Assembly: GCA_033398695.1 (NCBI GenBank) | Contig: CM065811.1 | Span: 119,335,501 to 119,399,500 of the forward strand | Direction: 5' to 3' | Length of the DNA: 64,000 nucleotides | From: Orobanche coerulescens | Lineage: Eukaryota > Streptophyta > Magnoliopsida > Lamiales > Orobanchaceae | Shown: positions 1,607 through 50,360 of the stretch, piece after piece | How positions within the stretch are numbered: the stretch's first letter is position 1 | How the letters are laid out: the number at the start of each line of letters is the position of its first letter | Notes under the pieces: generated by a model | The model's database searches: none | Told to the model about the DNA's origin: nothing | Seen by the model: only the letters and a program-made list of their open reading frames with translations | Position numbers and translations under genes: made by a program

Positions 1607-3158
1607 ATGACATCTGCAACGACCTCCAAGAGAGCCACCCTAAGATCTGCCGGAAATCTCATTCCGGCCCGATCAATCCCACCACACGGCGGAAGGCGAC
1701 CGTGGCGACGCTAGGCTCTCACTCCCGCCCCAAGGGACGGTTCTAGCCTCTCACTCGATCGGCCCTGCATCGGAATAGATTGAGGAGGCTATAGCCATCC
1801 TCAGGGAGCGACGGAAGGCCTACGACTCGCCCACCATCACTCCATCGGCCATCCGTCGGGCAGGCAAGCGGAAGCTTAAGGGGATCTATGTTGAGAAATC
1901 GACAGAAAGCCCCGAGCCGCAGGAGAAGGCTCTGGTGAGGCGGGACAATTCCGTCTTCAGCCGCCTAGGGAGCGATCCCTCATGGCGACCCGGGTACTCA
2001 GGCCCCAGCCGGGAGACATCGGAATCCGAATCCTTTACCAGGAGTTCGGCATATCCGACTCCCAGGAGACAGGTCGGTCAACGAGCCCCTGCTCGCCTAA
2101 GGAAGGAACCCACTGGCAGGGATCTCGTCATTCACCACGGGGCTAGGGGATCAGTACACGATCGCCTTAGTTCGCGTTCTGAGAGCCAATCGGCGAGCAG
2201 TCAGGCGACGGCGATGGCCGCCATGCAACGCCAGCTCGACGAGATGAAGGCGCTCCTAGAAACTGGGGCAGGTGCCAGGAGATCGATCGCTAGGCTAAAT
2301 GAACCACTCGCGGTCCAAATCGAGATCACCCCAATTCAACCAAAGATCGCTCCCCCACAAACGCCTCTATATGAGGGGAGGTCGGATCCGGAGACCCACT
2401 TTGGCAAATTCCGGATCTACATGACCGGATGCGGAGCCTCAGATGCGACGAAATGTCGAATGTTCCCGTTAACTCTGGGCGATCTCGCCCACAGGTGGTA
2501 CATCTCACTACTATCTCGCTCAATCAATTGCTTTGAGAAGCTGGCGAACGACTTCACGTCGTACTTTGCCGCCAAAGTCGCTCGCCCGGAAGGTCCCCAC
2601 CGCATGATGAAAATCAGGCAGGGGAAGGACGAATCAGATGAGGATTACATTGACCGGGTAGACGAGATAGTCCTCACCGGTGAGCCCATAAGCGACGAGC
2701 TCGCTCTCCACGCAGTCCTGAGCGGATTCCACGGACGCTCGCCCATGTTCAGGCACCTCACAAAGAATATTCCCCCGACCTATACGGTCTTTCGCGTCAG
2801 AGCCGCCGATTTTATGGCCAGGCAGAGTATGCTCTCCCTCCGTTTAGGCGAGGAACCCTACGGAGAAGGGAAGACACCTTCCCATGTCCAGAAGAAGGCG
2901 ATCGCCAAGCCCAGAAAGGCGGTCGCAAAGCCGCCTGGTGAGTTCAAAGCCTTCGAGGATGTGGAGGTCCACCTTCTCCACAACCTCAACTTATCTCCGG
3001 CCCACATCTTCAACGCAATCAAAGGTCGCGAGTGGCTCTCCAAACCAAAGCCGATAAGGGACCACGGTCACCTAGATCGCAGCAAATTCTGTGCATACCA
3101 CAAGAGTCCCGGCCACAACACCAGCCAATGCCGCGACCTCCTCAGACAGCTCTGGTGA
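1607..3158 (+). pseudogene. gag: gag of element T (broken)
   Basis: Encodes the capsid/nucleocapsid polyprotein that packages element RNA. A likely start ATG at 1607 opens a basic N-terminal peptide (MTSATTSKRAT), but that frame stops at a TAG near 1712. The main frame is open from about 1771, after a TAG, to a TGA at 3156-3158, and the stretch 1935-3158 is 407 codons. It contains a retrotransposon gag domain (around HRWYISLLSRSINCFEKLA) and ends with a knuckle-like motif CAYHKSPGHNTSQC, with His in place of the second Cys. The frame continues past the TGA directly into pol, so gag and pol were one ORF or are separated only by this stop. The N-terminal break and internal stop make the copy probably non-functional. 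Confidence 0.8.
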
Positions 3159-4935
3159 CTGTTTGAGGAAGGCAAACTGGACAGCTTGGTCACCAAGCCA
3201 GAACCTAGGATGGAGAGAACCGGAGGGCGCGATTGCCGACCAAACGAAAGAACTCCTCCAAATCCGGTCGCCAGAATCGAGCATGAGCCGGAATACTCTG
3301 ATGAGTCGATCCCTTCGATCAACCCGGGCGGTCGGATCAACATGCTTCAAGCAGGAGATGGAAACCTCGGGGGTATTTCCCCAGTTTCCACCATGTCAAA
3401 CAGGAAGCGAAAGTCCCAGCTGAGGGCGTTCGCCGGGGTCCATACCGTGGTTCCTCCGGAGCCGACAATTTCTAAAGACGCACTCATCACCTTTTCCAAC
3501 AAGGACAGGGAGGGAGTGCAATGCCCCAAAGAGGACGCACTGGTGATCTCCGCCTGTATCCTTGGGAAGAAGGCCGATCGTGTGCTGGTCGACAATGGGA
3601 GTTTCTGCAACATCATATTCAAATCCGCCCTAGACCAACTCGGCAACTTAATCAAATTCATCAAGCCGTTCGACACCGTGCTCCAAGGGTTCGGCGACAA
3701 CACAGTCCAAGCCTACGGGAGGATCAAGCTCTCCGTCGAGCTAATCTGCTTTTATGATCCCAAGGTTAGGATTACTAGGAACCTAAGTTTTGTAATCATA
3801 GATAGGCCCAGCATCTATAATGGGTTCCTAGGTCGCCCCTTTTTAGAAACCTTTGAGGCGGTCGCCTCATCTTTCTTTTACTGTATCAAATTCCCCACTG
3901 CCGATGGGACGGTCGGTACTGTAAAAGGAGATCAGCTAATGGCAAAAAGATGTTTGAGTTACTCCTATGTTGTTACTTCTTTCAATACATCCCATACTAT
4001 ATGTAACATTGAAGCGATCGACGATCAACCCATGGAGATCGACGAGCCAAGCACATCGTATCAACCCGACTCAGGGGACGCCATCTCTCATCAATCGACG
4101 GACGACATCGAGCCAAGGATCGGTTTCGAGCCAAGTCTCGACATCGATCCAAGGACCGAGTCCGGAGATCGTAACAAACGAGAGGCGACCGTCCCTGTCG
4201 AAGAGTTGGAAAGCATTATGATGGATCCGGTTCATCCAGAACGGGAAGTACAGATCGGCGCAAGCATCGACCACGAATTAAAGGGGGATCTGATCAACTT
4301 GCTACGTAGGAACATCGGAGTCTTTGCCTGGTCGCATCAAGATATGGTTGGGATAAGTCCCGAACACGCTTGCCATTATCTGAAGATCGACCGGGCGATG
4401 AAGCCTGTTCACCAGAAGCGTAGGAAGTTCGGTCCCGAGAAATACGCGGCGCTCAACATAGAAGTCCAGAAGTTACTCAACAACAAATTAATCGGAGTAG
4501 CTACAGACGAACCACAGTGGGTCGCCAACGCGGTGCTCGTCAAAAAGCCAACTAGCTCCTGGAGGTTATGCATCGACTTCACCGACCTCAACGCGGCATG
4601 TCCAAAAGATCACTTTCCGATGCCTCATATTGATCACTTGGTCGATAGTACGGCAGGTTGCGAAATGATGTCATTTATGGATGCCTTCACCGGATATCAT
4701 CAAATCCCAATGGCGGAGGAAGACATAAAACACACATCTTTCCACACGAAAAAAGACATATACTTTTGGGTCCGAATGCCGTTCGGCTTGAAAAACGCAG
4801 GGGCGACCTACCAGCGACTAGTCAACAGAATGTTCGCTAATCATATCGGCAAGACCATGGAGGTCTACATTGACGATATCGTAGTCAAAAGCCTCAAGAA
4901 GGAGGATCATCTCAACGATCTCGCCGACGTTCGTC
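3159..4935 (+). pseudogene. pol: pol of T, part 1: protease and reverse transcriptase
   Basis: Same frame as gag after its TGA. A retropepsin-like site appears as VLVDNGSFCNIIF (about 3585-3625), with Asn-Gly-Ser where Thr/Ser-Gly is usual, as is common in Tat elements. The reverse transcriptase follows: the DFTDLNAACPKD motif, MPFGLKNAGATYQ, and the catalytic YIDDIVVKS at about 4864-4890. Near 4932 a one-base loss shifts the frame. The domain continues in the next frame from about 4936. This part would provide polyprotein cleavage and cDNA synthesis. Confidence 0.85.
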
Positions 4936-5676
4936 ATCCTCGAGAAATTCAACATGAAACTGAACCCCAAGAAATGCAACTTCGGAGTAGGCTCCGGGAA
5001 ATTCCTAGGGCACATCGTGAGCCAAAGGGGGATTGAGGCGAACCCCACCAAGATTCAGGCGATCCTCGACATGCAGGAGCCGCAAAACATCAAACAGGTG
5101 CAACGCCTCACAGGTTGTCTAGCCGCCCTCAACCGTTTCATATCACGGCTCGGCGATAAAAGCAAGCCTTTCTTCGCAACCATCAAGAACAAGAAGTTCG
5201 CATGGACGAAGGAAAACCAGATAGCGTTCGCCAAAATAAAGGAATATCTATCTAACCCCCAGATCCTGGCAAAGCCGATCCCCGGTGAGAAACTATTCCT
5301 TTACCTGGCACCCTCGGAGGTCGCACTAAGTGCCGTTCTGGTGCGAGCGGAGGGACAAGCCCACTTGCCCATCTATTATGTTAGTCAAGCGCTCCACGAC
5401 GCTGAAACACGTTATACACCATTGGAGAAGATCGCATACGCCCTTGTCATGAGTGTTCGTAAGCTGAGGGCTTACTTCTTCGATCACCAAGTGGAAGTCC
5501 TAACAACTCTACCTCTAAGGCAAGTCCTACACCGACCGGACACCAACGGGCGACTCCTCAAGTGGTTGCTGGAGATCGCCCAATACGGTATCACTTACGC
5601 TCCTCGCACGGCAATCAAGGGCCAAGCTCTGGCGGACTTCGTGGTGGAATTAACTTTCCCTCACAGTCCGACCTAG
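4936..5676 (+). pseudogene. pol: pol of T, part 2: RT thumb and first RNase H
   Basis: This continues the reverse transcriptase after the frameshift (LNPKKCNFGVGSGKFLGHIVS, about 4957-5019). A Ty3-type RNase H domain follows (around VALSAVLVRAEGQAHLPIYY and YTPLEKIAYALVMSVRKLRAY). The usual first catalytic Asp of RNase H is not obvious in this copy. It is known that Tat elements often carry a degenerate first RNase H plus a second one, which fits here. The frame ends at a TAG at 5674-5676, after which recognisable protein continues in the same frame. Confidence 0.82.
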
Positions 5677-5979
5677 GTCGGCCGACCTGCCTGGAAATTA
5701 TATGTGGATGGCTCGGCGACCAATTCGTGAGCAGGGGCAGGGATTGTCCTCATCAGTCCCGACGGTCAAAGTTTCACAAATGTTGTACGTTTCAGTTTTC
5801 GTGCGACCAACAATGAAGCTGAATACGAAGCTTTCGTAGGCGGGCTCGATCTAGCCCTCGCCCTAGATGTTCGTCGCCTCCATATCTTCATGGGCTCCCT
5901 TTTGGTCGTGAACCAAGTCAAGGGAGAATATGAGGCGCGCGGCGAACATATGGTCAAATACCAATAGCTGGTCGCCGAA
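5677..5979 (+). pseudogene. pol of T, part 3: second (archaeal-type) RNase H
   Basis: Reading on in the same frame gives KLYVDGSATNS, NNEAEYEAFVGGLDLAL and, further on, EHNSQADALSKLAS (near 6025-6065). These are the catalytic Asp, Glu and Asp neighbourhoods of the additional RNase H found only in the Tat lineage. Two stops interrupt it, TGA at 5728-5730 and TAG at 5965-5967, besides the TAG at its start. Three in-frame stops without frameshift point to base substitutions rather than missed bases. Confidence 0.82.
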
Positions 5980-6535
5980 ATGTGCACAAAATTTGAAGAA
6001 GTGCTAATCGAACAAGTCCCGAGAGAGCACAACTCCCAGGCCGATGCTCTTTCCAAACTAGCATCATCGGATGGGGCAGCCGACTTCTCCAATATCCAAA
6101 TCACAAAGTCAGCAAGGCCGGCGATCGACAGAAGCCTGGTTACCACGATTGCCATCGCCGAGGAGAACTGGATGACTCCGTTCATCAAATACTTAAAGGA
6201 CGGAACGGTCCCTGACGACCGTGTTAAAGCTCGCCAACTCCAGCTCCGTGCGACCAGATATACCCTATTGGACGACCAGCTTTACAAGCGAGCCTTCAGC
6301 CTTCCCCTCCTCAAGTGTATTACACCGGAGGAAGGTCGGCTCGTTTTAGCCGAGATCCATGACGGGATTTGCGGAAACCATGCGGGCGGGCGAGCTCTCA
6401 TCCATAAGACAACCAGGCAAGGTTTTTTCTGGCCATCACTTCAGAAGGATGCGATTGCCTATGCCAGATCGTGTCACAAAGCGATAATGGGCCCAAACAT
6501 CAAACTCTCCCCGAACAGCTCACCTCCATGTACGG
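5980..6535 (+). pseudogene. pol: pol of T, part 4: end of second RNase H and integrase zinc finger
   Basis: Open frame beginning with the end of the second RNase H and passing into the N-terminal integrase region. The two His of the HHCC finger are visible in HDGICGNHAGGRALIH (about 6358-6403). The Cys pair is damaged: only CHKA is seen where C-x-x-C is expected (about 6475). Near 6535 the frame is lost and the core continues in another frame. Confidence 0.78.
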
Positions 6536-7377
6536 CCCTTGGACATTTGCGCAATGGGGCATCGACCTTATTGGTCCCTCGCCGACGGCTCTGTGGGGTC
6601 AGAATTTGCTATCGTAGGGGTCGACTATTTCACCAAGTGGGCAGAGGCCGAGCCACTAAACAAGATCGCCAAGAACAGTGATCAAGTTTATCTGAAAACA
6701 TCATATGCCGATTCGGTGCCTGTGCCATCATCTCCGACAATGGAAAACAATTCGACGGCCTAGAAGTCATGCAATTCTCGTGAAAAGTGGGGAATCAAAA
6801 GGTTATTCTCGGCGCCCTATCACCCTCGCATTTAACGGGCAGGTAGAGGCAGTGAATAAGATCCTCAAACACACGAATAAAGCGCGACTCGAATCCAGGC
6901 AAGGACGATGGGCGAGCGAGCTCCCAAACGTTTTGTGGTCCTACCGAACGACGACCCGCAATTCAACTGGCAAAACCCCATTTGCCCTTGCCTTCGGAAC
7001 AGAAGTGGTGATTCCTTCAGAGATCGCCGTCCTCAGCCATCGAACCGAACAGGAGATGACGACCGACAACGATGTGGCCCGACGAATCGACCTAGACATG
7101 CTCGAAGAACGACGGCTGACCTCAGAAATGAAGAACACAATCCACAAAAGGAGAGCCGAGAAGTTCTTCAATTCAAAGGTCAAAGAAAGAAGGTTTCAAG
7201 TGGGCGATCTCATCCTCAAGAAGATCCAAACCCACACAGGCGTTTTCGGTCCGAACTGGGAGGGACCTTTCAGAGTATCCAGATGGCTAACTAAAGGAGC
7301 CTACGAACTGGAACATCCTGACGCATTCGGATCAATACCCCTGGAACGCCGTGCATCTGAAAAAATACTACCAGTGA
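6536..7377 (+). pseudogene. pol: pol of T, part 5: integrase core and C-terminus
   Basis: The catalytic core is spread over several frames. The first Asp lies in EFAIVGVDYFTKWAEAE (frame of 6539-6763), the second in IISDNGKQFDG (about 6727-6760), and the Glu in NGQVEAVNK (about 6837-6863). All three catalytic residues are therefore kept although the reading frame is not. The C-terminal part (FFNSKVKERRFQVGDLILKK) and the last motif WNAVHLKKYYQ end at TGA 7375-7377, in a frame shifted near 7330. Confidence 0.78.
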
Positions 7378-8447
7378 TAATTTTGTATTCAATTTCAATG
7401 ATGTACAAGGAATATAATGAGATTTTTTCCTATCCCATCTATTCTGGCGATCGCCCCACCAGGCATATCGCATACCACCGACGATCGTTGATCATGACGA
7501 TCCGAGGTAAAATCAATGCAGCCATGGTTCTGGAGGTCGATGGAACCGACAGTTTCGCCCATGCAAGGTTCCTTTGGGCTGAGATCGCCCGCCCTTCGTT
7601 TAAATATGAGGCCGGCGTAGCCGGAGGACCCTCCAAAATAATCAGTAGACACGATCGCACGTCCTCAAGGTACATCATCTAACATGGTGAACCCGGACAA
7701 TGCGACGTGCCACTACCCCCGTCTCAACGTACACCGTCGAGGGTCGCCATCTTCATGGCGGGCCGAGGTGGAAGCAGAGCCGACAATCCGCGGACGTGGA
7801 GTCGAATAAGCCAACGACGCCCCGCGCAAGGACTCCTCCAGACCAAGATCGCCCGCCTTTCGTTTTAACACAAGGCAGGCGTAGCCTAACGGAGGACCCT
7901 CACAAAAAGTGAGTCGCGGGATACACAATATCCCTCGCACACAATGACACGATTGGGGAGGTCGGTCCATCGAACACCCCAACCGTACATGATTCTTTAG
8001 AATCGGCAAAACTGAAGATAGCTCGCCAGACAAACTAGTTTTTGTTTCCTTACTTACAATAAGTAAACAAAAACAAGGGGGCAGAGATGGGTCGAGCTAA
8101 TCCCAAATACGATCGAACAAAAAGGAACCACGCACGATCGGCTTCACTCAAACACACGCAGGACGATCGGAATCGTTCGACAAAAATTACAAGTAAGAAT
8201 TCCGATTCAAAACATATCAATGCTTTCAACACTCAGACAATCGGTCGGATGAACAAAACGTCAAAAGCAATCATACACGTACTTGTAAAAATTGCACGCA
8301 AACATTCAAAGGCGATCGTATGTAAAGAGACAGTATGAAAAGAGGAACATTTTATTCATAATGCAAGTTTCGTACATTACGGGGCCCGAAGGCATTACAA
8401 AAGGAAAACAAAAAAGTACAAGTTACAGAGGAAAACAAAAATGTCTC
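7378..8447 (+). other. Non-coding stretch of T after pol
   Basis: No convincing gene on either strand. A roughly 50-bp sequence (from GATCGCCCGCC to GGAGGACCCTC) occurs twice, at about 7584-7632 and 7848-7893. CGATCG-containing motifs are frequent. The right end runs into the 3' end of the antisense gene. Confidence 0.5.
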
Positions 8448-11081
8448 TCAAGGCCCCACCGGCTGGTCATCGCCCTCAGGTTGCGGATCGGCTTGGGCCC
8501 CCCCATCGGCCTCGGGATGAATGAGTTTACCAGTATACCAACTCAAGTCGATCCCGAAGTCGACAAAGTCAAGGATCAGCAAGGAGAACTCTGGGTGCAG
8601 AGGATGCTCGAGGGCATAGGATTTGAAGCTCTCCATCAAGGGACCAATCTCGATCCCTGCCTTTTTAGCGGCTCGAAAAGCGTCAGCATAGGCCAAGTAA
8701 TAAGCGAACTCGCCGACGAGCGCAACGTTGAGGTAGGGATCGGCCTCGATCGCCTTCAGCTGCCCCTTCAACTCCTCGGCCGTCTTCTCAGCCTCCGCCA
8801 GCTCGACCACCTTGGCGGCATTCTCACCCTTGGCCTTCTCCAGCTCCTTCTTCGCCGCCTCCATCTCACCGCTGAGCCGATCCACCATCGCCTTCACCCC
8901 GACCGCCTCCTCCTGCGAAGCCGCGTACTTCTGGCGGGTTTCCTTCTCCTTATCACGGGACCGGTCGGCAGCCTCCTTAGAGCGGCTCAGCTCCTGCTTC
9001 AATCGGTCAACGTCCTGTTTAGCCCTTTTGGCCGTCTCCTCATACTCCTTCTCCATAGACTGGATCCGGTTAGCAAGTTCAATGTTTTTATTCCGGGCGG
9101 CCTCGAGGTCGCTATGGAGACGAGCAGTGGAGGGTCGCCCCTCAAAATCCCTAGCGGCTTGGACGGCCATCGTCGCCGTCTGGAGAGCTGTGGCAACGTC
9201 GCCGCCTGCATGGCATTTCCAGATCGCCGACGAGCGATCGCATCAAGATCGGTCGTCCAGGCCTTGGGCAGAGAGGTGATAGCCTGCTGGACGTAAGTAG
9301 GGACTTCGAGAGATGTTTGCGGAGCCTTACTCGACAAAAAGTCCATCACCATAGGAGCGACGTCTGGATCGGCGAGACGAACCCTGCAGCACAAACCAAA
9401 GAAACCAAGGAGTTAGCCTATACCTTACTCAGAATGCCTAACTCAGAAAATTTTGATCCTTTCTTACCTATTGACCAGCTCGGGATCGCGACCAAAATAA
9501 GGCTTACCCCGAGAGGTTTCCGCCTCAGCGATCGCCACCTACTTCGTAGGGCCGCCCGATGACCGGGAGTCGGTCGCCGAGGGCCTAGGGCCTGATCGCT
9601 CCGTCATCGAGATGGCAGAAATAGGAGCCGCAGCAACCGGAGGCTCAAGAATGGATACATCCGCCTCAGTAATCGGCAGGGACTCCTCCGACCTCCGCCT
9701 CTTGCGGCGCTGAAGTTGTTCCTCTCCCTGAACTACCGGCCGGGCGACGGCACCTCAAAGAGCCTCACACCGGAGCAGGGCGAGACGTCGTCGTAGGAAT
9801 GCGACCAGTCTGCTTACCCAAGTGAAGGCGTCCGATGAGTCCCGGGTTTGACATGGCGATATCTGGCGGCGGCTCGGCAAATCGGGGAAAATGAACCTCT
9901 GTCAAAGAAGAGGTACAAACAAGTTAGACAACAACTTAAACGATACGACCTCCTGGAGACGATCGTCAAGCAAGGAAGCACCACTTAAGCTCATACCTGG
10001 AACTTTCAAGTGATGGGGGAAGCAAAACAATCGAGCCCCCAACCGATGAATTTCGTTACCAAGCGAGCGAACGTCAATAAAGGAATCCGGCAAGGCACGG
10101 ATCCGCTCCCAAACGATCAAGAAATCGAAAGGAAGGTCGCCGATCGCTGGAACGAGAGGTCCTGCAAAAAGAAAACAAAATTAGATCAGTCCAAGACAAG
10201 CTCAATCAAGGGGAGAGTTAAAATCCTTACTCGGATTCCTCTCCCGGAAAGTGGTGGGGATCTCCAACTCCTCATTCGGCCTGTCACTCGATGCCGATCG
10301 CCACGCCCCGCCGACCCAGCACCATTTAGCCAGGTCACCCTTGGTCTTGTTCGGCACTCCGAGGACCACTCTCCCTATTCGGCCTTGTATATGATTGCCG
10401 CCGATCGACCCTTTCTGCGTGGCCAGTTTAAACAGATAATTCATCTCCAGCGCAGTAAGGAGGCGGAACAACCGGTGACCGCCAAACAGTGTCAACGTGC
10501 AGATGACCAGAGCTGCCGCTCGGCGTCAATTGAAGAGGCGCCAAATTCCAGGCGATCAGCAAGTAGGAGACGGCGAATGGCAGAGGAAATCGCAGACCGG
10601 CCTCTATAATCATCTCGCTGACGGCAACCATATCCTCGGGCGGTTGATCGGCACGTTCATTCTCCGAGGGCACGTGCAAGGAAACGTCAGAGGGGATGTG
10701 ATATTTGGCCCTCCAACGGCTCAGGTCTTTCTTGGTCGCCGTACTCCGGATCTTTCCGAGAGTCCACGGAGACGGGACGGCGGCCCGAAAAACCGTCCGC
10801 TTCACATGTTCGTAAGGGTGAGCGGCAGAGTAGGCTTCGAAGTCGAATTCCGGACAGGGTCCGGCGATCGCTTCCATCATCTGAGCGAAAGCCACATAAG
10901 CAGGGCCGAATCTACTCTCTCGTTCCCAGGCCGCCCGCACCAAATCATCCTCATCCACCGGCAAGCCCCCCTGCTCCGCCATCGTCGCCGTCCTCGCCAC
11001 TTCGGCCTCGTTGAAAAGTTCTTCGAGTTCTGCGGGTGCAATCCCCGCACGAATAGCTTCAACTGCCATCTCCATATCCAC
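8448..11081 (-). pseudogene. Antisense gene of T, 'putative gypsy type transposon' family, spliced and broken
   Basis: Read on the minus strand from about 11081 down to the TGA at 8448-8450. The first part resembles the plant protein domain known as 'putative gypsy type transposon' (IPSDVSLHVPSENERADQPP, then FPLPFAVSYLLIAWNLAPLQ). Near 10510-10530 one base is gained or lost and the domain continues as LTLFGGHRLFRLLTALEMNY. GT-AG introns can be read at 10162-10230, 9899-9996 and 9384-9467. The last part (8448-9170) is a long Lys/Glu/Ala coiled coil. It is joined to the preceding exon by another frame change near 9180. An in-frame ATG is at 11073-11075, and the frame stays open upstream without another ATG. 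The plus-strand ORF of 334 codons over this region (8292-9296) is a mirror of the coiled coil. Antisense ORFs of unknown role are known at this place in Grande- and Retand-type elements. Confidence 0.72.
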
Positions 11082-11300
11082 TCCAACGGGAATCTTCTCC
11101 TGCTCAGCGACGCGCGGAAGAACTTCCGGTCTCGAAGGTTTTGGATCCTCCCGACATATTAGAAAGTAAAGGGAGAGAGAAGATTAATTTTTCTTACCTA
11201 GAGAAAAGATGGAGATCGGCACAAGAAGCTCCAGAAATTTTTGCAGAGTTTCGGCTATGGATGCAAGGACGCGTAAAGAATGAAAGAGAAGAAGACCCAG

Positions 11301-11312
11301 CCTTTTTATAGA
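11301..11312 (-). promoter_or_regulatory. Possible TATA box of the antisense gene
   Basis: The minus strand reads TCTATAAAAAGG, about 230 bp upstream of the antisense coding start. A good splice donor (CTAG/GTAAG, near 11198) lies between them, so a 5' untranslated exon is plausible. Confidence 0.45.
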
Positions 11313-11640
11313 TGGAGGCGGGGGTCTAAGTGCAAATAGGTGAAATCTCGAGGGCCGGATCGCAACCGTCATCGTGGGGACGCATTAAATGCTGCCCTCA
11401 AATCCCGCGGACGCGTCTTTTCGAGGGCACGCCAGGCAACAAAGTCTGACAAACCGTCGGACTCCCCCAACAATAGCGCGACGCGTGTCCCTGCAACTTT
11501 TCGAGAGCCCGCCTTCATTTCCCGCTGCTCCCGGCGCAAAAGGAGATCGTCCAGATTTGAATTCAGGTCGGCTGATCGGCTAAACATTGGCGATCGCTAA
11601 CAGTGCCACCTCACCCCGTGTTTTCAACATAGAGGCGAGC

Positions 11641-11650
11641 TGGGGGCAAT
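11641..11650 (+). other. Polypurine tract of T
   Basis: TGGGGGCAAT directly abuts the 3' LTR start at 11651, where plus-strand cDNA synthesis is primed. Confidence 0.6.
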
Positions 11651-12615
11651 TGTTGTGCGGCGATTAATACGCCTCGATAGGCGATCGGCATCACAATCAG
11701 GGAAGCCAACTATGGAAGACATACTCTGGACAAACGCCCAGAGTTCGGCACAATACAGCGACCGTCTTTTGGTACCCAGCGATCGTCTTTCGATATCTGA
11801 CGATCGTCTTTAATGAGCGAACCAGAGGCGATCGTCTCGTGCCACATATGGATCCAGTATCCGTCAAAGTCGTCGAAGACCGAATCTTGGACGGTGGCCC
11901 ACGTGCGGATCTTCAAAAGGCGCCGACAGATAGGACATTTGACCACAACCTGTCACCTACCTCACCTACCGACAAGGCCGCCGAAAGGTACAAAGTGGGT
12001 CCTCCCCGGACAGCGACTCAAGACGCGTGCTGGCTTCCCATTGGTTCGCCCAGCTGGCCACCAGCAGCGACCTCGGACCTCAAGGGAACAGGCCCACGTG
12101 ACGGGACGATCGGCCATCTTATTTTAATATAGAAAACGGCGGTCGCCCGCGATCTCCTGAGGAGTCCCAACTACCTAGTCTCCTATAAATAGAGAACACA
12201 CTGCAATGGCCAAAAGGAGGCGAATTTACTACGAATTCAGTGCAAAACACACACAAAAAGAGAATCAAAGACTCTTTTGGCAACCACTTATACATTCATA
12301 GTGATATTCATATACATTTTATCATATATCCCAAGCAAGAACTCACAGATTTACTTATCTGGTTCTTCCGGCAATCTACGCGCTCTACAGCCTAGATAAC
12401 TAGAAGTCTTTACACTCCTTGTAATAGATTCTAACATGAATATTTGTACTCGACAGTATATTTATTAATAACATCTCGCGAGAGCATTCAAGCCCGGGAT
12501 TAACAACCCCGGCAAATCTTGTGTTATTTATTTTCTCACGGAAGTGTTCTCGCATTTGTTTGTTACTCGATCATTCCAGCAATACTATCTCCGGATAATA
12601 TTTTGGGTAACAACA
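11651..12615 (+). repeat. 3' LTR of element T
   Basis: 965 bp, the same length as 514-1478, with about 25 substitutions by eye and no indels. It is followed by the duplicated target AACAG (12616-12620). Confidence 0.95.
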
Positions 12616-16660: not shown

Positions 16661-16742
16661 TAGCGCACGTTAAACGCATAACGTAGCGTGCGCTAAGTTG
16701 CTCCCGTTAGCGTGCGCTAGCCAGTAAGCTTAGCGTGCGCTA
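16661..16742 (-). promoter_or_regulatory. Four-box palindrome cluster downstream of B's TATA box
   Basis: 12-bp boxes of the TAGCGYRCGCTA type start at 16661, 16684, 16708 and 16731 (pitch 23, 24, 23). The corresponding cluster in L (60641-60722) has the same four-box pattern. Confidence 0.7.
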
Positions 16743-17599: not shown

Positions 17600-18112
17600 C
17601 TTATATAATAAACATTACTAACGTGCGCTACTCTCATAAAATAGCGTGCGTTATTGCCCTAGGGTGCGCTAACTGACTTTGTTAGCGTGCGCTATCGCAG
17701 CCCAGGGGCCACTGTCTTGCCTCGTACATCAGCTTACGTACGTAATACCCATGCATTAGCGTACGTAACTTACACTGTCTAGCGTACGCAATTCCTTGCA
17801 TTTAGCGTGCGCTAACATCAGTTGACTTGCTACAGTCTACCTACCGCATGTGCCCCCACATGCCGATATGACAAGGATAAGATTCCCTTTGACCGATCTA
17901 CAATTAGTGTGCGTTAAGCCTCATGCTTTAGCGTGCGCTAATACTTCAGGACAAACAACCGTTGACCTTATCCGGACACGCACAGAAAGCAGCCGGGTCC
18001 ACACGCAGATTCCTTCCGATCTGACTGCATTTAGCGTGCGCTACATTCTGCCTCTAGCGTACGCTAATCATGAACGATAGCGTGCGCTATACTTGAACAT
18101 TAGCGCGCGCTA
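17600..18112 (-). promoter_or_regulatory. Palindromic box array and TATA box in B's LTR
   Basis: Boxes start at 17619, 17642, 17660, 17683; 17734, 17757, 17780, 17803; 17905, 17929; and 18032, 18055, 18078, 18101. Two groups of four keep an exact 23-bp pitch. Variants include TTACGTACGTAA (17734) and TAGCGCGCGCTA (18101). On the minus strand the array lies upstream of TATATAAG (17600-17607). Confidence 0.75.
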
Positions 18113-18277
18113 ATCAGGCTATACTTTGTAATACCCGAGATTTCTGTTATGTATTTGGAACTTGTGATATTGTATTGATTGTACTTTTGTCTGAGTACTA
18201 TTCTCCGTATTTCATAATCCGATATTGTCGAGCGTTTAATTTCGTGTTTGTGATTTAAAGATTGTATTCTGCGCATG

Positions 18278-18593
18278 TAGCGCACGCTATCGGCTACGTT
18301 TAGCGTGCGCTAACGTGGATTAATAGCGCACGCTACTGAGGGTCATTAGCGCACGGTATGCGTGGTCAATTTGATTGAGACGTGCGGTAGGTGAGATCTG
18401 GCCGGGGGACCCCTGTCGGATCGTGTCGGATGTACCTGGACGGCTTTCGGGAAAAGTCGAGTCAACGCCTTAGCGCACGCTACAGGTATATGCGTAGCGC
18501 ACGCTAAGTGCCGAGTACAGTTAAGTCAGTTAGCCGTTAGCGCACGCTACGAGCAGGGTCTAGCGCGCGCTAATAGCCATTTCTTATAAATAG
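18278..18593 (+). promoter_or_regulatory. Upstream palindromic box array and TATA box, C 5' LTR
   Basis: 12-bp boxes TAGCGCACGCTA and variants start at 18278, 18301, 18324 and 18347 (exact 23-bp pitch), then at 18471, 18495, 18538 and 18561. The 11-bp spacers are unrelated to each other. The array ends a few bases before TATAAATAG (18585-18593). The copy in the 3' LTR is at 25532-25847. Confidence 0.8.
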
Positions 18594-19247
18594 GACAGCA
18601 TCCTATTCGTGATTTCAGTTCTTTCTTCACCCATTACACGAATTCTCACACTTAGAACATAACGTCCTTCATCCTAAACACTTCATATCAACATCCTAGT
18701 TCGTGATTGAAGATCGTATATCATTGGAGATTGGTGTTCAAGCTTTCGGTGTTGGATTGCTTCAATTTCCTCCGTGTTCTCCACTACCTTGAGGTAGGTG
18801 ATTCTTCACCAATACTAGTAGTGTTCTATAGGATGTTGATCATGTTCATCTAGTCAGTTAGATTCGTTATTAGTCGTACATCTTGTGTTAGAAGGATATT
18901 TTCGACGTTTCGACACTTATTCATCGTATGAACCCTTGAACCATCTTAGTAGTATGGAATCCTAAGCGTTTTTCAATCGATTTATGATCAGTGTATGAAG
19001 ATTACCTAGTTCGTATGTTTTACGTAAGGAATCATATGTTTTGGGACTTGGAATATTTCTTGAAGATCTTGGATGAGTTATGGTGTTGAGATAATTATCC
19101 GTATATTTGTATCTCATAATCATAGAATTTCCACAAACCTTATTAGCATGATATACCCGAGGATAATTTGTATTATCACCATAGAGTTCATGAATTCACC
19201 ACCTTTCAACCCAGTTTTTCCGTTAGCAGTATTCTGCCATGCAAGGT

Positions 19248-19439
19248 TAGCGCACGCTAACATATGTGAGTTAACGTGCGCAATCGGGGTTCAGTTAGCG
19301 CACAATACGTACGTAGCGTATGTTATGTATCAGCCGATTCGAACTGTCAGTTCGTGGCTAGCGCACGCTAGTCTTCCACGATAGCGTACGCTAACAGGCC
19401 GGCTTAGCGCACGTTACGTAGAGTACGTAGCGCACGCTA
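19248..19439 (+). promoter_or_regulatory. Second palindromic box array, downstream of the TATA box, C 5' LTR
   Basis: Boxes start at 19248, 19272, 19296, 19314 and at 19359, 19382, 19405, 19428. The second group has an exact 23-bp pitch. Several boxes are imperfect (19272, 19296, 19314). Because it lies about 650-850 bp downstream of the TATA box it should be part of the transcript. Confidence 0.72.
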
Positions 19440-19809
19440 AGCAGTCCAGGCAGATTGTTTATTTTGAGCTTTTCGGCCGTAGACCGAATTGTTAGGCCAT
19501 CGTTCGACTTGAGATGATTTGTATATCATTCCTTTTGTTAAGGTTCGAGCTTGTTACGTTGATCGAAGGAGGCGGCCTTCGAGTGTGTCGAGATCATTGA
19601 AGTGTTTTGTCCTTGCCATTTTCGAGGCAAGTATCATATGTGGAGTTCGATTTATATTGAAACTTTGATCATGCTTGTGGTTTTGTTCATATTGTTGAAT
19701 ATGAGATGTATTTCTGAAAATTCTCGTGATATTCGTTGTTATTTGTTCGTATTGATGAACATATTGAAATGCATATGTGTATGCATAGTTGATTGATTAT
19801 GGTATAAAT

Positions 19810-19990
19810 GGTCCGAGGGGATCATGAGGATCTATGCTGAGGGCGCTGGATCGAATGTCCACCATGCGTTGGTCCGACGGGATCATCATGGGGATCTATG
19901 CTGAGGGCGCTGGATCGTTGGATGGGTTTTCCACCATGCGTTGGTCCGACGGGATCATCATGGGGATCTATGCTGAGGGCGCTGGATCGC
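19810..19990 (+). repeat. Tandem repeat in C's LTR
   Basis: Three units of about 62-72 bp, each with GGGATC..ATGaGGATC, CTATGCTGAGGGCGCTGGAT and mostly CCACCATGCGTTGG. The same units occur in the 3' LTR (27064-27245) and in both LTRs of L (55380-55710, 61540-61870). Short ORFs read through them only because of the repeat. Confidence 0.8.
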
Positions 19991-20475
19991 TGGAATACTC
20001 TGTATTGTGTTGATGGAATCGTGAGGATTCGCATCGTTAGATTCCAGTGGCGGAAGTCCGTTTTGCATGTTCTATGATGCATTGATGATTTATTGTATGA
20101 TGATAATTGTACTAGCATTGTTTTGCTAACCCCTTCGGGGGTGGGCATTGTTTTGATGTTCAGGTAGCCGAGGAGCGGGGAGGCAACCACAGTACCGACA
20201 GGACGATGAAATGGCTCAGTGATGTGGTTGATGTTATTGTTATTATGAATTGTCTTCTTGGTTCGTTTAGTACTCGAGTACGTCTGTTTTAATAAGGTCA
20301 TTTCGATATGGTTGTATAAGTTAACTTATTTGATCGGTTGAATCAAATCTGTATTTGAACTTCAGTTGTTCGATTGGATTATTTTTACACTTCTTTAAAA
20401 TTAGCCTTGTAAATCCTTATCTAAAGGGTTTACGGCGCTGTAATTATTCCGAATATCTCGGGGTGTTACAGAATA

Positions 20476-25380: not shown

Positions 25381-27724
25381 TGTAATACCCGAGATTTCTG
25401 TTATGTATTTGGAACTTGTGATATTGTATTGATTGTACTTTTGTCTGAGTACTATTCTCCGTATTTCATAATCCGATATTGTCGAGCGTTTAATTTCGTG
25501 TTTGTGATTTAAAGATTGTATTCTGCGCATGTAGCGCACGCTATCGGCTACGTTTAGCGTGCGCTAACGTGGATTAATAGCGCACGCTACTGAGGGTCAT
25601 TAGCGCACGCTATGCGTGGTCAATTTGATTGAGACGTGCGGTAGGTGAGATCTGGCCGGGGGACCCCTGTCGGATCGTGTCGGATGTACCTGGACGGCTT
25701 TCGGGAAAAGCCGAGTCAATGCCTTAGCGCACGCTACAGGTATATGCGTAGCGCACGCTAAGTGCCGAGTACAGTTAAGTCAGTTAGCCGTTAGCGCACG
25801 CTACGAGCAGGGTCTAGCGCGCGCTAATAGCCATTTCTTATAAATAGGACAGCATCCTATTCGTGATTTCAGTTCTTTCTTCACCCATTACATGAATTCT
25901 CACACTTAGAACATAACTTCCTTCATCCTAAACACTTCATATCAACATCCTAGTTCGTGATTGAAGATCGTATATCATTGGAGATTGGTGTTCAAGCTTT
26001 CGGTGTTGGATTGCTTCAATTTCCTCCATGTTCTCCACTACCTTGAGGTAGGTGATTCTTCACCAATACTAGTAGTGTTCTATAGGATGTTGATCATGTT
26101 CATCTAGTCAGTTAGATTCGTTATTAGTCGTACATCTTGTGTTAGAAGGATATTTTCGACGTTTCGACACTTATTCATCGTATGAACCCTTGAACCATCT
26201 TAGTAGTATGGACTCCTAAGCGTTTTTCAATCGATTTATGATCAGTGTATGAAGATTACCTAGTTCGTATGTTTTACGTAAGGAATCATATGTTTTGGGA
26301 CTTGGAATATTTCTTGAAGATCTTGGATGAGTTATGGTGTTGAGATAATTATCCGTATATTTGTATCTCATAATCATAGAATTTCCACAAACCTTATTAG
26401 CATGATATGCCCGAGGATAATTTGTATTATCACCATAGAGTTCATGAATTCACCACCTTTCAACCCAGTTTTTCCGTTAGCAGTATTCTGCCATGCAAGG
26501 TTAGCGCACGCTAACATATGTGAGTTAACGTGCGCTATCGGGGTTCAGTTAGCGCACAATACGTACGTAGCGTACGTTATGTATCAGCCGATTCGAACTG
26601 TCAGTTCGTGGCTAGCGCACGCTAGTCTTCCACGATAGCGTACGCTAACAGGCCGGCTTAGCGCACGTTGCGTAGAGTATGTAGCGCACGCTAAGCAGTC
26701 CAGGCAGATTGTTTATTTTGAGCTTTTCGGCCGTAGACCGAATTGTTAGGCCATCGTTCGACTTGAGATGATTTGTATATCATTCCTTTTGTTAAGGTTC
26801 GAGCTTGTTACGTTGATCGAAGGAGGCGGCCTTCGAGTGTATCGAGATCATTGAAGTGTTTTGTCCTTGCCATTTTCGAGGCAAGTATCATATGTCGAGT
26901 TCGATTTATATTGAAACTTTGATCATGCTTGTGGTTTTGTTCATATTGTTGAATATGAGATGTATTTCTGAAAATTCTCGTGATATTCATTGTTATTTGT
27001 TCGTATTGATGAACATATTGAAATGCATATGTGTATGCATAGTTGATTGATTATGGTATAAATGGTCCGAGGGGATCATGAGGATCTATGCTGAGGGCGC
27101 TGGATCGAATGTCCACCATGCGTTGGTCCGACGGGATCATCATGGGGATCTATGCTGAGGGCGCTGGATCGTTGGACGGGTTTTCCACCATGCGTTGGTC
27201 CGACGGGATCATCATGGGGATCTATGCTGAGGGCGCTGGATCGCTGGATTACTCTGTATTGTGTTGATGGAATCGTGAGGATTCGCATCGTTGGATTCCG
27301 GTGGCGGAAGTCCGTTTTGCATGTTCTATGATGCATTGATGATTTATTGTATGATGATACTTGTACTAGCATTGTTTTGCTAACCCCTTCGGGGGTGGAC
27401 ATTGTTTTGATGTTCAGGTAGCCGAGGAGCGGGGAGGCAACCACAAGATCGGCGTAACGATGAACTGGCTCAGTGATGTGGTTGATGTTATTGTTATTAT
27501 GAATTGTCTTCTTGGTTCGTTTAGTACTCGAGTACGTCTGTTTTAATAAGGTCATTTCGATATGGTTGTATAAGTTAACTTATTTGATCGGTTGAATCAA
27601 ATCTGTATTTGAACTTCAGTTGTTCGATTGGATTATTTTTACACTTCTTTAAAATTAGCCTTGTAAATCCTTATCTAAAGGGTTTACGGTGCTGTAATTA
27701 TTCCAAATATCTCGGGGTGTTACA
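25381..27724 (+). repeat. 3' LTR of element C
   Basis: 2,344 bp, equal in length to the 5' LTR. It keeps both box arrays (from 25532 and 26502). One box that is imperfect in the 5' copy at 18347 is perfect here at 25601. A cluster of seven differences in 12 bp is seen at about 27446-27457 against 20191-20202. Confidence 0.95.
25532..25847 (+). promoter_or_regulatory. Upstream palindromic box array and TATA box, C 3' LTR
   Basis: Boxes start at 25532, 25555, 25578, 25601, 25725, 25749, 25792 and 25815, each exactly 7,254 bp from its 5' LTR partner. TATAAATAG is at 25839-25847. Confidence 0.78.
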
Positions 27725-28027
27725 TACTTAGCCATTTTCCAACTCTCCTCGTCTGTCTCGACATACCAAATACGAACATACGACATACTGAATACATGTA
27801 CTGAATCCAATAACATCATCATACGATATACCCAATATCAAAAGTACGATAACCTGATACACGATATCCTCAAAATAATTGTCGAACCACTACGACAGTT
27901 ATACGAGTACAAATACAGCTGTCTCAGTTCTGAATTTATTTTATCCATACTGTATAAACACCAAGCCATCCAGTATATCTTAGATAAAATAACGCGAAAA
28001 ATTCATACTGAAAATTCGGGTATTACA
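27725..28027 (-). mobile_element. Element B, 5' end of LTR
   Basis: On the minus strand the LTR starts TGTAATACCCG at 28027. The bases to its right show no polypurine tract, so this is the 5' LTR border of B and GTTAC (28028-28032) is its likely target duplication. 27725-27729 is the duplicated TACTT made by C. Confidence 0.75.
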
Positions 28028-29506: not shown

Positions 29507-30723
29507 TGTTGGGTTAAATAATGTTGTTTTGATAATTACCAAACAACTATCCTCCATACAGCAGATGAAAAATGCGCAGCATACAGCAAGCCGCTGTATC
29601 GAAAGTCCGATCGAAGGTGTCAATACTGTATCGAAGACCTTCTCATAGCACCAGCATACAGCGAGCTCTCGCTCTACCAAGATACAACAACAAAGCCTAA
29701 GTAAACGCCTAGTATGGAAGCTATGTGAATACAGCTTCTTTTCATACAGCACCGGACTACTCCAATATGCCTACAACATAAATGGATACAGTAATCACAT
29801 CGGAACAGGACTGAAGACCGTTTGGAGAGGAATCTTTAGTATTCACTAAAGTCAAGTCCCGTTTAATAAAGAAGTATTTAAATACTGAAAGGATAAAATA
29901 TTTAAATACTGAAGCTGTCAGAGATCTTCAAATCCCGCAATATCCGGATCGTGTTTTTCATCCCGTTGTAACGGAATCTCACTCAATGGACATATCTCAA
30001 CGGATATATTTTCCAGAAGACTATATATATCTCATGAAGGCATTGAAGATCAGTAACCAAGTTACCGAAATTATCAAGTTATCAAAGTTATTATCAGAGC
30101 AAAACATATCTCCAAAGCCTACTGTAACTCAGAACTAAGAGATATACAGTGCTCATCATCGTGAACAACACATCATCAGCTCGAAGCTCAAAAAGTAAAA
30201 GCTGTTGTTCATACCCTGTTCATATACTTTGAACAAACCCAGAATCAGCCCTGTGTGGACTGAGGAAGACGAAGCTTCAGAACTCTGTGTGAAGAAGTCA
30301 GTTAAGAAGGAAGCTTCAACCAAATCTGTGTGAACGGTTGAAAGCGAAAGTCTTTGTATTTATCTGTGTGAACGATACAAGGATAGGTTTGATTATATAT
30401 ACATAGTTGTGTATGCAGTATTTATAATAAACATTTTACTCCTGTGTGGAGGACCAGTGGACGTAGAGGGGTTTACCTCGAACCACTTAAATACTGTGTT
30501 ATTTACCTTTCGCCGCTACTGTTTTCATAACTGTGATTTATTCAAGTATACACTGAAAAACCCTGTACGCACCAAGCTAACAGGAGATTATACCGAGTTG
30601 CTGTATCGATAGCAACTTACTGTTTTAAGACTTCCGCTATGCACTCAGATTAGAAAGCCATACAGCCTGTTGCCTAAAGCACTTTCCCAAGCTGTATCCT
30701 GTATACTTTAGAAGGGACCAACA
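29507..30723 (+). repeat. 5' LTR of element F
   Basis: 1,217 bp starting TGTTGGGTTAAATAATG and ending GGGACCAACA. A TATA-like stretch (TATATATAT) is at 30022-30030. Confidence 0.93.
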
Positions 30724-30725
30724 AT

Positions 30726-30737
30726 TGGTATCAGAGC
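30726..30737 (+). other. Primer binding site of F
   Basis: TGGTATCAGAGC, two bases after the LTR, complementary to initiator tRNA-Met, as usual in plant Ty1/copia elements. Confidence 0.88.
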
Positions 30738-30834
30738 GGTTGATTCTAAAAAGAATCAGTCGTATTTTTAACTGAATCAGATCCTTAAAAACACTTATTT
30801 TCGAAAACAGTCTTTGTATTTCCCATCTTCTAAT

Positions 30835-32160
30835 ATGGATACCTTTATGTCAAATAAGATATCTATGTTTCACATTAATGAGGTTGATGACTGGAGAAAC
30901 AGGATGAAGAACAAACTCAAGGCCTTCATTGGAGAATCAAAAGCTTCACCCGCATCAACAAAGACCGAAGAGTGTCTTCAGGTGGTCACTGACAGTGACT
31001 CGTCAGATGATGAGCTAGAAGATAGAGCCTATATGTGCTCTATGGCCGAAGTTAAAGAGGAAAATGAAGACGGCGATGATGATGAGGTAAGCTCTACCTC
31101 AACTATTCCTGTAAATGCATCTCATACCTTTGAAAACATGTTGAATGAATTTAATAACATTAAAAAGGCCCATGAGATATTGAAAAGAGAAAACATACAA
31201 CTTGAAATTTCTAACTTAGAGCTGAAGGAAGAAAACGACTTGCTGAAGGATAATTACGAAAATATGTCAGTCGATTGCGAAAACAGCAAAGTCAATTTAG
31301 AAAAACTCATGGAGAGCAATCATCAACTTGCTCACGATCTAAATGAGACTAAGTCTAATATTGAAAGCAAGACAAATGATTTGGCTCTACTCGAAGCCAA
31401 AGTAAAATCACTCGAGAAACATGAAGGAGAATTAGAGACAATCTTGAATTCTTTCGAGAAATCCTCTAATAGAATGGAAGAGATCCTAAGCACTGGGCAA
31501 TATGCTCATGATAAACGTGGCTTAGGGTACAACTCGTTCTCCAATAAAGAAAAATCTAGTACGGTATTCGTCAGGAGTGAGGAATCCATTCCTGTATCGA
31601 AGGAAATTCCAAGTTCCGTGAAGGAACCCGCTGCACCGCGAAAACCGAAGGCTGCCATTCCGCCCCCGCAATCCTATTCCAGACAGCGGAATCATAAGCC
31701 GTTCCAACCTGTGAGACGCACTCAACAGTATGCTCCCAGAGTATATTAACAGCGCCAACAGCCATTCAGAAAGAAGGCTGTACCCAATTATCTAAGGCCC
31801 GTACGGCAGTACTCTCAGTACAGCGCGCCTAGATATTGAATACAGGAGCCCCGTTATCCATCAAGAAAACAGGTCGCAGCGCAGTATCAACAACAGCGTT
31901 GGGAACCCAACTGGAGACCCAGAAGGCAAGCTGTTAGGCCAAAGAAAATGGCTCCACCTCCGAGACGACAATCGTACTGGAATAACAACTATAATTCTCG
32001 ATTTTTCATGCATTATAATTATCATGATTACAACGACTACGTGCCTGCCCCACGTAGATATCGAAATAATGGACCAAAAGTAGCCTACAACAAACCAATT
32101 GTTGTCAGGCAAATTTGGGTACCGAAAGGAACTATCACACCAGGACCCAAATTTACTTGA
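30835..32160 (+). pseudogene. gag: gag relic of element F
   Basis: From ATG 30835 (MDTFMSNKISMFHINEVDDW) the frame is open to TAA 31747-31749 and continues, after a second stop TGA 31837-31839, to 32160. The start resembles the copia gag N-terminus (W..RM...L). It then passes at once into an acidic stretch (DSDSSDDELEDR) and a long coiled coil (about residues 100-220). The UBN2-type capsid core and the CCHC knuckle expected between them are missing, so an internal deletion is inferred. The tail is rich in Arg, Gln, Tyr and Asn and ends with IWVPKGTITPG, a motif often seen at the end of SIRE-type gag regions. Whether the shortened protein is made is unknown. Confidence 0.72.
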
Positions 32161-32918
32161 TTTCTATGCTTAAACAAGAATTGGGAACACTACAGCTAGA
32201 CTCCATGTAAGTTCTTATGCTTTTACTCATTAATTGAGGGGGAATGCTGTAAGACCCAAGAATACAGTATCCAACGTTAATTAACTGTACACTCAGAACC
32301 GTCAATACAGCACTGTAGTGAACAAAGACATATGAATCATCCTACAGCTGACGTGTGCAATAATTAAGGGGGAATACAGTACGACCCATGAATACAGTGT
32401 TAATCCTAACATTAATGTAAGAATTGAAACCTGTATGTATCTTTTAAAGGGCAACGCTGTATTATTCGCGGATACATTACTTACACTACAGGACATCAAT
32501 TATGATTGATAAATTTATTTTATTGTGTATTGCTGTAAGAACTCGTCTGCGAACAGTTCATAGGTTCAGTTGTACTCAACTAAGATTATACTGTAAGATT
32601 GTGCCTGCGCGCCAATCATAGGTTTAAGATGTAAATACACTTACCTGTTTGATGTTATCATTTTTTAGAACTTGCCTGCGAGCAGTTCACATTTCTTTTA
32701 GACTAAGTGCTGAAGACCAGATCATTTGACAGAAAGAAGTCTGCTCAAGACATTATCAAAAAGAGAGGGAAACAGTGGGATCCTGTATCGAAGTCCTCTC
32801 AAATTGGCAACAAGTTGTTATCGAAAAAGAAGGAGAAATTGTTTTAGCTTAAAGAGGTCTTGGCATCAAATTTTTGGGATCATCAAGATGTTTTGGAAAT
32901 TATCAAAAATGGGGAAAT
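32161..32918 (+). other. Non-coding 3' internal region and polypurine tract of F
   Basis: No ORF of note. The text repeats TGTAAGA..CC and ACAGT-rich phrases. The tract AAAAATGGGGAAAT (about 32905-32918) abuts the 3' LTR and is the plus-strand primer site. Confidence 0.65.
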
Positions 32919-34134
32919 TGTTGGGTCAAATAATGTTGTTTTGATAATTACCAAACAACTATGCTCCATACAGTAGATGAAAAATGCGCAGCATACAGCA
33001 AGCCGCTGTATCGAAAGTCCGATCGAAGGTGTCAATACTGTATCGAAGACCTTCTCATAGCACCAACATACAACAGCTCTCGCTCTACCAAGATACAGCA
33101 ACAAAGCCTAAGTAAACGCCTAGTATGGAAGCTATCTGAATACAGCTTCTTTCCATACAGCACCGGACTACTCCAATATGCCTACAGCATAAATGGATAC
33201 AGTAATCACATCGGAACAGGACTGAAGACCGTTTGGAAAGGAATCTTTAGTATTCACTAAAGTCAAGTCCCGTTTAATAAAGAAGTATTTAAACTGAAAG
33301 GATAAAGTATTTAAATACTGAAGCTGTCATAGATCTTCAAATCCCGCAATATCCGGATCGTGTTTTTCATCCCGTTGGAATGGAATCTCACTCAACGGAC
33401 ATATCTCAACGGATATATTTTCCAGAAGACTATATATATATCTCATGAAGACGTTGAAGATAAGTAACCAAGTTACCGAAATTATCAAGCTATCAAAGTT
33501 ATTATCAGAGCAAAACATATCTCCAAAGCCTACTGCAACTCAGAACTAAGAGATATACAGTTCTCATCATCGTGAACAACACATCATCAGCTCGAAGCTC
33601 AAAAAGTCAAAGCTGTTGTTCATACCCTGTTCATATACTTTGAACAAACCCAGAATCAGCCCTGTGTGGACTGAGGAAGACGAAGCTTCAGAACTCTGTG
33701 TGAAGAAGTCACTCAAGAAGGAAGCTTCAACCAAATCTGTGTGAACGGTTGAAAGCGAAAGTCTTTGTATCTATCTGTGTGAACGATACAAGGATAGGTT
33801 TGATTATAAATACATAGTTGTGTACGCAGTATTTATAAGAAACGTTTTACTCCTGTGTGGAGGACCAGTGGACGTAGAGGGGTTTACCTCGAACCACTTA
33901 AATACTGTGTTATTTCCCTTTCGCCGCTACTGTTTTCATAACTGTGATCTATTCAAGTATACACTGAAAAACCCTGTACGCACCAAGTTAACAGGAGATT
34001 ATACCGAGTTGCTATATCGATAGCAACTTACTGTTTTAAGACTTCCGCTACGCACTCAGATTCGAAATCCATACAGCCTGTTGCCTAAAGCACTTTCCCA
34101 AGTTGTATCCTGTATACTTTAGAAGGGACCAACA
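32919..34134 (+). repeat. 3' LTR of element F
   Basis: 1,216 bp, closely matching 29507-30723, and followed by the target duplication ATCTA (34135-34139). Confidence 0.93.
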
Positions 34135-44712: not shown

Positions 44713-44716
44713 TAAA

Positions 44717-50355: not shown

Positions 50356-50360
50356 ATCAC

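Follow-up and report, generated by a model that had tools for sequence, protein, structure and literature searches.

Arrays of 12-bp near-palindromic boxes, set at a pitch of 21-24 bp with unrelated spacers, were found in front of the TATA box in the LTRs of retrotransposons of Orobanche coerulescens, and the TATA box itself occupies the next slot of the array. The boxes change more slowly than their surroundings, symmetric positions within them change jointly, and other palindromes occur in the same layout. The boxes are quite probably sites of a putative dimeric activator that would stack up to the TATA box and switch retrotransposon transcription on.

Little is understood of how the LTRs of abundant plant retrotransposons work as promoters. 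A lattice with the TATA box as one of its slots offers a simple grammar for such promoters, open to testing and represented by hundreds of thousands of natural variants in a single genome; the switching of palindromes offers natural experiments on the joint change of DNA-binding specificity and sites. The extension of the Sirevirus layout to Ty3/gypsy raises the question of independent origins around the same host proteins.

Box arrays in element A

The 5' LTR of element A (18127-20470, plus strand) is 98.7% identical to its partner LTR (25381-27724), and the element is flanked by a 5-bp target-site duplication, TACTT. The boxes of this LTR have the near-palindromic form TAGCG-YR-CGCTA, with TAGCGYRCGCTA as the main box. 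The initial annotation described groups of four palindromes at an exact 23-bp pitch. This holds for upstream group 1 (18278-18358, plus strand), in which the four boxes start at 18278, 18301, 18324 and 18347 (steps 23, 23 and 23). The four boxes of upstream group 2 (18471-18572, plus strand) depart from the exact pitch, starting at 18471, 18495, 18538 and 18561 (steps 24, 43 and 23). The reported distance of this group from the TATA box was correct: its last box ends at 18572 and TATAAATA lies at 18585-18592 (plus strand), with 12 bp between them, so that the TATA box begins 24 bp after the last box start, in the next slot. The word is palindromic as described, but strictly a near-palindrome, the central pair of TAGCGCACGCTA being mismatched; the box at 18301, listed as a one-base variant, is in fact the reverse complement of TAGCGCACGCTA.

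A downstream group (19248-19439, plus strand) lies approximately 660-860 bp past the TATA box, with boxes of up to two mismatches at 19248, 19272, 19296, 19314, 19359, 19382, 19405 and 19428. The 3' LTR of element A repeats both the upstream arrays (25532-25826, plus strand; TATAAATA at 25839) and the downstream group (26502-26693, plus strand). Neither TATAAATA nor TATATA was found in the 120 bp read after the downstream groups of elements A and B. A total of 140 box matches (up to two mismatches, both strands) were identified in the window, that is, the whole stretch of 64,000 nucleotides analysed, compared with a mean of 1.8 and a maximum of 7 in 100 shuffles. The 73 boxes with no more than one mismatch comprised 57 in the LTRs of A and B, 15 in LTR C and one at 24098.

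Elements carrying arrays in the window

Pfam analysis of the three long ORFs of element A revealed Retrotrans_gag, followed by RVP_2, RVT_1, RT_RNaseH and Integrase_H2C2, in that order. Element A is hence assigned to Ty3/gypsy, because the gag, protease, RT, RNase H and integrase matches stand in gypsy order. After the integrase, a Chromo match lies below the Pfam cut-off (E 1.3e-4; 22.3 bits, cut-off 25.1) and the SH3_Tf2-1 match is strong; judged by sequence, element A is probably a chromovirus. tggtatcagagc, which we take to be a methionine-tRNA primer site, stands after the LTR, and together with the long LTRs it is only suggestive of the Tekay lineage. Among named proteins, those of Orobanche species come closest to the end of the A polyprotein (75-81% identity).

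Five LTR pairs were found in the window. Elements A and B carry TAGCG boxes and element E carries TTACGGCCGTAA boxes; the LTR pairs at 514-12615 and 29507-34134 contain none of the four palindromes tested. The LTRs of element B start at 52953 and 59104 (duplication TTAAT). Its 5' LTR has an array at 53263-53751 (plus strand), with the last box starting 23 bp before TATTTA at 53763, and a downstream group at 54482-54560 (plus strand); its 3' LTR has an array at 59414-59909 (plus strand; TATTTA at 59921) and a downstream group at 60641-60722 (plus strand). LTR C, which is B-like and interrupted by element A, has its array at 17619-18112 on the minus strand, the TATA at 17607 and a downstream group at 16661-16742 (minus strand). 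Element A is nested in this minus-strand LTR 14 bp from its outermost box (18113-18126; duplication TACTT, 27725-27729). Boxes of the TTACGTACGTAA type occur in the middle of the TAGCG arrays of B and C (53603-53637, with TTACGTACGTAA at 53626; 59784-59795; 17734-17745), and TAACGTACGTAA-type boxes are likewise found mid-array in L031, L047 and L050.

Element E (LTRs 41776-44712 and 47365-50355; duplication ATCAC) has a TTACGGCCGTAA array in its 3' LTR (47898-48197, plus strand), with steps of 19-23 bp within groups and the TATA at 48221, 35 bp after the last box start. A matching, more decayed array is present in its 5' LTR (42306-42572, plus strand). This element, with its TTACGG boxes, sits inside the pol gene of D, an older minus-strand gypsy element (41149-52830). 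The interiors of B (56678-59103) and E (44713-47364) are short, and no polymerase domain was found in them; the B interior has no ORF above 95 aa and the E interior a single ORF above 150 aa (210 aa, with zinc knuckles). Because of these short interiors without a polymerase domain, both elements look non-autonomous, despite their full LTRs and arrays.

The LTRs of A, B and E begin with TGTAATACCCG or a one-base variant. Among 49 TGTAATACCCG-like start matches in the examined sequence, some of which need not mark LTR starts, 33 had at least three boxes of the four classes within 1.6 kb and 16 did not. Downstream of the arrays, the LTRs of A and B also contain a 72-bp tandem repeat in about two copies (19821-19994, 27075-27248, 55420-55554 and 61577-61713).

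Pitch and spacers across the genome

Genome counts in this study (3.65 Gb) are lower bounds. Pairs of boxes with a spacer of 0-30 bp numbered at least 471,302, of which at least 268,679 were at exactly 23 bp; the reversed control in the same genome and a control palindrome made of the same letters rearranged gave 0 pairs each. Among the first 100 pairs listed, all on one contig (C1), the pitch was 23 bp in 54, 24 bp in 33 and 19-22 bp in 11, with 34 and 41 bp once each. The genome-wide test proposed in the initial annotation thus returned the 23-bp peak with unrelated spacers. In 20 random 10-kb stretches (200 kb), 106 perfect boxes were counted, and nine of the 20 stretches had six or more boxes with up to two mismatches. 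Four other palindromes searched in the same 200 kb gave 0 perfect matches, at most one one-mismatch match and 6-42 two-mismatch matches.

In the examined sequence, TAGCG pairs were found 109 times at 23 bp and 54 times at 24 bp. After removal of redundancy, 47 of the 109 spacers remained, and their columns held 0.02-0.16 bits each (sampling bias about 0.05). Aligned with one another, the spacers do not form a single tandemly repeated 23-mer, and boxes are present in other family members. The idea of an operator-like array under spacing constraint, put forward in the initial annotation, is supported by the 23-bp peak and the unrelated spacers. The likeness to CRISPR is superficial, as was assumed there: the arrays are parts of LTRs, many of their spacers recur in other copies, and no cas genes were found among the 11 ORFs scanned.

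Register with the TATA box

A box was found 0-30 bp before TATAAATA at no fewer than 32,549 places genome-wide (16,325 + 16,224), compared with 0 and 1 for the controls. Among the first 100 places listed, in which copies of one family recur, the gap to TATAAATA was 12 bp in 57, 11 bp in 28 and 10 bp in 5, with ten scattered between 2 and 30 bp. The distance from box start to TATAAATA start was hence 22-24 bp in 90 of these 100, which places the TATA box in the next slot.

For the examined sequence, 34 of the 45 automatic promoter calls were kept and 11 were set aside by eye as antisense or in-spacer, three of these having a favourable 21-bp distance. The 34 promoters formed 14 clusters (blastn 1e-15, at least 120 bp), some of them weakly related to each other. 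A distance of 21-24 bp from the last box start to the TATA box occurs in at least one member of 10 of the 14 clusters, which between them cover three of the four palindrome classes; each of the 10 also has at least one member with the preceding box at 42-48 bp. For the remaining four clusters, the distance from the last box to the TATA box is 34 bp, 51-53 bp (two clusters) and 58 bp. A binomial calculation for 10 of 14 gives 3e-9; it assumes uniform gaps and independence and serves as a guide only. The four GTGCCG promoters examined have TATTTA 23-24 bp after the last box start.

Conservation, symmetry and direction of the boxes

Comparison of 28 pairs of diverged copies, which are not mutually independent, revealed differences at 381 of 8106 box positions (4.7%) and at 4139 of 24596 other aligned bases (16.8%), a ratio of 0.28. 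The neutral expectation for this ratio at this divergence is about 0.75 by simulation under the same box filter, because a counted box must stay recognisable in one copy. Seven LTR pairs, with target-site duplications for A, B and E, showed 32 differences in 1698 box positions (1.9%) and 582 in 27602 other positions (2.1%), giving a ratio of 0.89 (neutral value 0.95), or about 0.64 without E. For perfect boxes only, the LTR-pair ratio was 0.71 with E and 0.36 without E (nine changes), the expectation being 0.53. Pooling of 13 near-identical pairs, not all of them LTR pairs and with 142 bp of non-LTR flank in the A pair, gave 0.49. The LTR pairs are a weak neutral control, small and uneven, yet their ratio lies above 0.28.

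Positions 3 and 10 were complementary in 308 of the 339 boxes of the form TWRCGYRCGYWA, against approximately 256 expected from column totals (copies not independent). Such joint change of positions 3 and 10 is what a dimer site would show. On the sense strand, with one member taken per cluster, the box centre was CA in 52 of 61 boxes and TG in three, and this bias indicates that the box is directional. CpG decay was considered as the full source of box variation and rejected, since the half-sites retain their CG pairs, a switch between T and A is seen at position 11, and CA and TG centres stand at 52 to 3. Polarised CpG changes outside the boxes in two clusters (CA 9, TG 3) are too few for a verdict on strand bias.

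Other palindromes and their exchange

A motif-free palindrome scan, from whose results AT-rich chains and the CGAATCGAATCG repeat in L032 were left out, revealed further arrays. Genome-wide, pairs with spacers of 0-30 bp numbered at least 20,311 + 20,446 for TAACGTACGTAA (controls 1 and 0), at least 53,946 for TTACGGCCGTAA (controls 0) and at least 14,411 for GTGCCGCGGCAC (controls 0). The modal pitch was 23 bp for TAACGTACGTAA (69 of the first 100 listed), 22 bp for TTACGGCCGTAA (26 of the first 50 listed) and 21 bp for GTGCCGCGGCAC (37 of the first 50 listed).

Five promoters with putative LTR ends share a common core (around TAAC..CTAGTT and CTATAAATA) and could be aligned over eight slots, with L037 lacking the first two slots, L031 lacking one, and one L035 box being a hybrid. 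At six of the eight slots, TAGCGCACGCTA types, some of them decayed, are present in L047, L050 and L031, whereas TAACGTACGTAA or TTACGTACGTAA types are present in L035 and L037; the two middle slots have TAACGTACGTAA types in all five promoters. Box mismatches between the two switching groups fall mostly at positions 3, 6, 10 and 11. With the boxes excluded, 48% of the aligned columns differ between the groups, and the homology of the flanks is hence only partial. In a second set, TAGCG arrays (L031 and L048) or GTGCCG arrays (L037 and L047) lie between similar stretches, 83-91% alike near the LTR start and 73-83% alike past the TATA box. In addition, L036, with TATCGG boxes, shares the 403 bp before its array with L047 at 91%. 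Such like flanks around different arrays suggest that arrays are exchanged as blocks too.

It is possible, although we hold this tentatively, that one lineage carries a swappable promoter code, in which fixed slots of 21-24 bp lead to the TATA box and 12-bp palindromes (TAGCG, TAACG, TTACGG, GTGCCG and TATCGG types) are exchanged as a set, most sets having their own pitch. The exchange of sets would then track diversified DNA-binding regulators in a race between activator and evasion.

A fifth palindrome, TATCGGCCGATA, was observed at 4650-4760 of L036, just before TATAAAT, in an LTR that begins like those of box-bearing families. L038 (1300-1600 and 8280-8580), in which the scan found no TATA box, contains the other palindromes ACACGGCCGAGT and GCACGGCCGTGT, and its LTR start equals that of a TAGCG family. 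On contig C1, TAACGTACGTAA arrays in direct orientation are often about 3.1 kb apart among the places listed, which suggests the LTR pairs of a short element.

Proposed function and alternative explanations

We infer that a dimeric, sequence-specific protein binds the boxes. This protein is predicted to occupy adjacent slots of approximately 21-24 bp along the LTR promoter, and the row of proteins would abut the transcription machinery at the TATA box, one slot further on; binding of the array would activate, rather than repress, transcription of the retrotransposon. The pitch would be set by the size of the protein, the spacers would be free, and sets of sites would be replaced together. The readers of the different palindromes may be relatives within a single protein family, or a single protein whose preference has shifted. 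A host gene probably encodes the binding protein, because Pfam matches in the three long ORFs of element A are limited to gag, protease, RT, RNase H, integrase and chromodomain-type domains.

Several points count against the activator reading. The DNA helix has 10.5 bp per turn; 23 bp corresponds to 2.2 turns, which takes successive sites off the same face. The last box lies 34-58 bp from the TATA box in 4 of the 14 clusters, and 35 bp from it in E. Furthermore, the downstream arrays of A, B and C go beyond what promoter activation accounts for, and the CA bias on the sense strand goes beyond what a fully symmetric dimer accounts for.

The same downstream groups would suit a roadblock or silencer, and together with the two or three CG in each box they favour arrays that dock a host repressor or chromatin factor, kept either since self-limitation or dormancy pays or since the site is inseparable from the promoter. 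The occurrence of different arrays within homologous promoter frames would likewise suit escape from such a factor. We regard this explanation as unlikely, the strict TATA register and the very large number of boxes being better suited to activation. It is quite improbable that the palindromes work through nucleic-acid structure, by forming hairpins or by pairing of boxes in RNA, for example as a source of small RNAs. Tandem near-palindromes can pair mutually, and the accessible part of PMC10760457 describes secondary structures of maize genes and transposable elements that are correlated with small RNAs. However, the predominant CA centre (52/61) gives two C-A mismatches per pairing whereas a CG, TA or TG centre is compatible with pairing, 14 arrays had no consistent sense or antisense advantage in predicted folding energy, and a role in structure leaves both the TATA register and the fixed pitch unaccounted for.

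The regular spacing itself has two further possible sources. If the array were a decayed tandem repeat of a 23-mer, the pitch would be a relic of duplication and the boxes its best-kept part; neighbouring spacers do agree slightly better, at 3.7 of 11 positions in 17 non-independent pairs, against 2.8 of 11 in 1081 random pairs. This origin is nevertheless very improbable, given that the spacers are nearly without information and those of young, independent arrays do not align mutually, that boxes are better kept than the rest in diverged copies, that steps run from 19 to 24 bp plus near-multiples whereas duplication yields exact copies, and that the layout recurs with other palindromes. Nucleosome or general chromatin spacing, with no protein at the box, would agree with spacing that is regular across several hundred bp, but it is hardly credible as the source of the pitch, since nucleosomes are spaced much more widely than 21-24 bp and it is particular 12-bp words, rather than palindromes in general, that are enriched. 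A role of the palindromes as insertion targets was also considered and rejected, the accessible part of PMC6911290 giving only a slight preference, not significant for Tekay.

Comparison with known systems

Sireviruses already provide an example of palindrome arrays before the LTR TATA box, and the parallel drawn in the initial annotation is real. As described in the accessible part of PMC2829016, Sirevirus RM boxes are palindromes of 10-20 bp with at least eight copies per element, located mostly in the upper half of the LTR before the TATA box. The RM palindrome varies among many of the 13 elements, with boxes kept and flanks diverging; 12 of the 13 RMs have a CGG-CCG core, and the TATA box averages 37 bp after the CpG island (PMC2829016, same part). 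The elements analysed here share with this description the many palindromic boxes clustered before the LTR TATA box. Unlike the Sireviruses, which belong to Ty1/copia, element A shows the gypsy domain order. With respect to the RM core in that part of the source, the main box TAGCGYRCGCTA lacks CGG-CCG, TTACGGCCGTAA has it, and GTGCCGCGGCAC has CCG-CGG. The same part of PMC2829016 reports no fixed pitch, no box-to-TATA register and no in-place switching of palindromes for the RM boxes.

No description of this layout in Ty3/gypsy chromoviruses was found in the open-licence literature, which was the scope of the search. The accessible parts of PMC6911290, PMC11963269 and PMC3605345 contain no palindrome-array layout for gypsy elements, and the six papers of that literature that contain one of five box words are virus, animal or protein-production work, as judged by titles and the starts of abstracts. 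As far as searched, the Ty3/gypsy carrier, the fixed pitch, the TATA register, the class-specific pitch and the switching are hence new relative to the open-licence literature.

VANDAL elements with VANC, and En/Spm with TnpA, are DNA transposons that encode a protein binding their own arrays of short motifs. The arrays reported here resemble these systems in being short-motif arrays in non-coding parts of a transposon and differ from them in that a gene for the binding protein is absent from the long ORFs of element A. A NAC factor was considered as a reader because TTACGT resembles a NAC half-site. NAC sites have the form T[G/A]CGT, with a CGT-N7/8-ACG palindrome, according to the accessible parts of PMC4081100 and PMC4106437. 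This palindrome was rejected, as the box halves abut and the next box is 23 bp off, and the NAC model of those sources also fails for the main box and for the TTACGG and GTGCCG classes. The half-sites of the second class, TTACGT and TAACGT, do contain or approach the T[G/A]CGT form given there.
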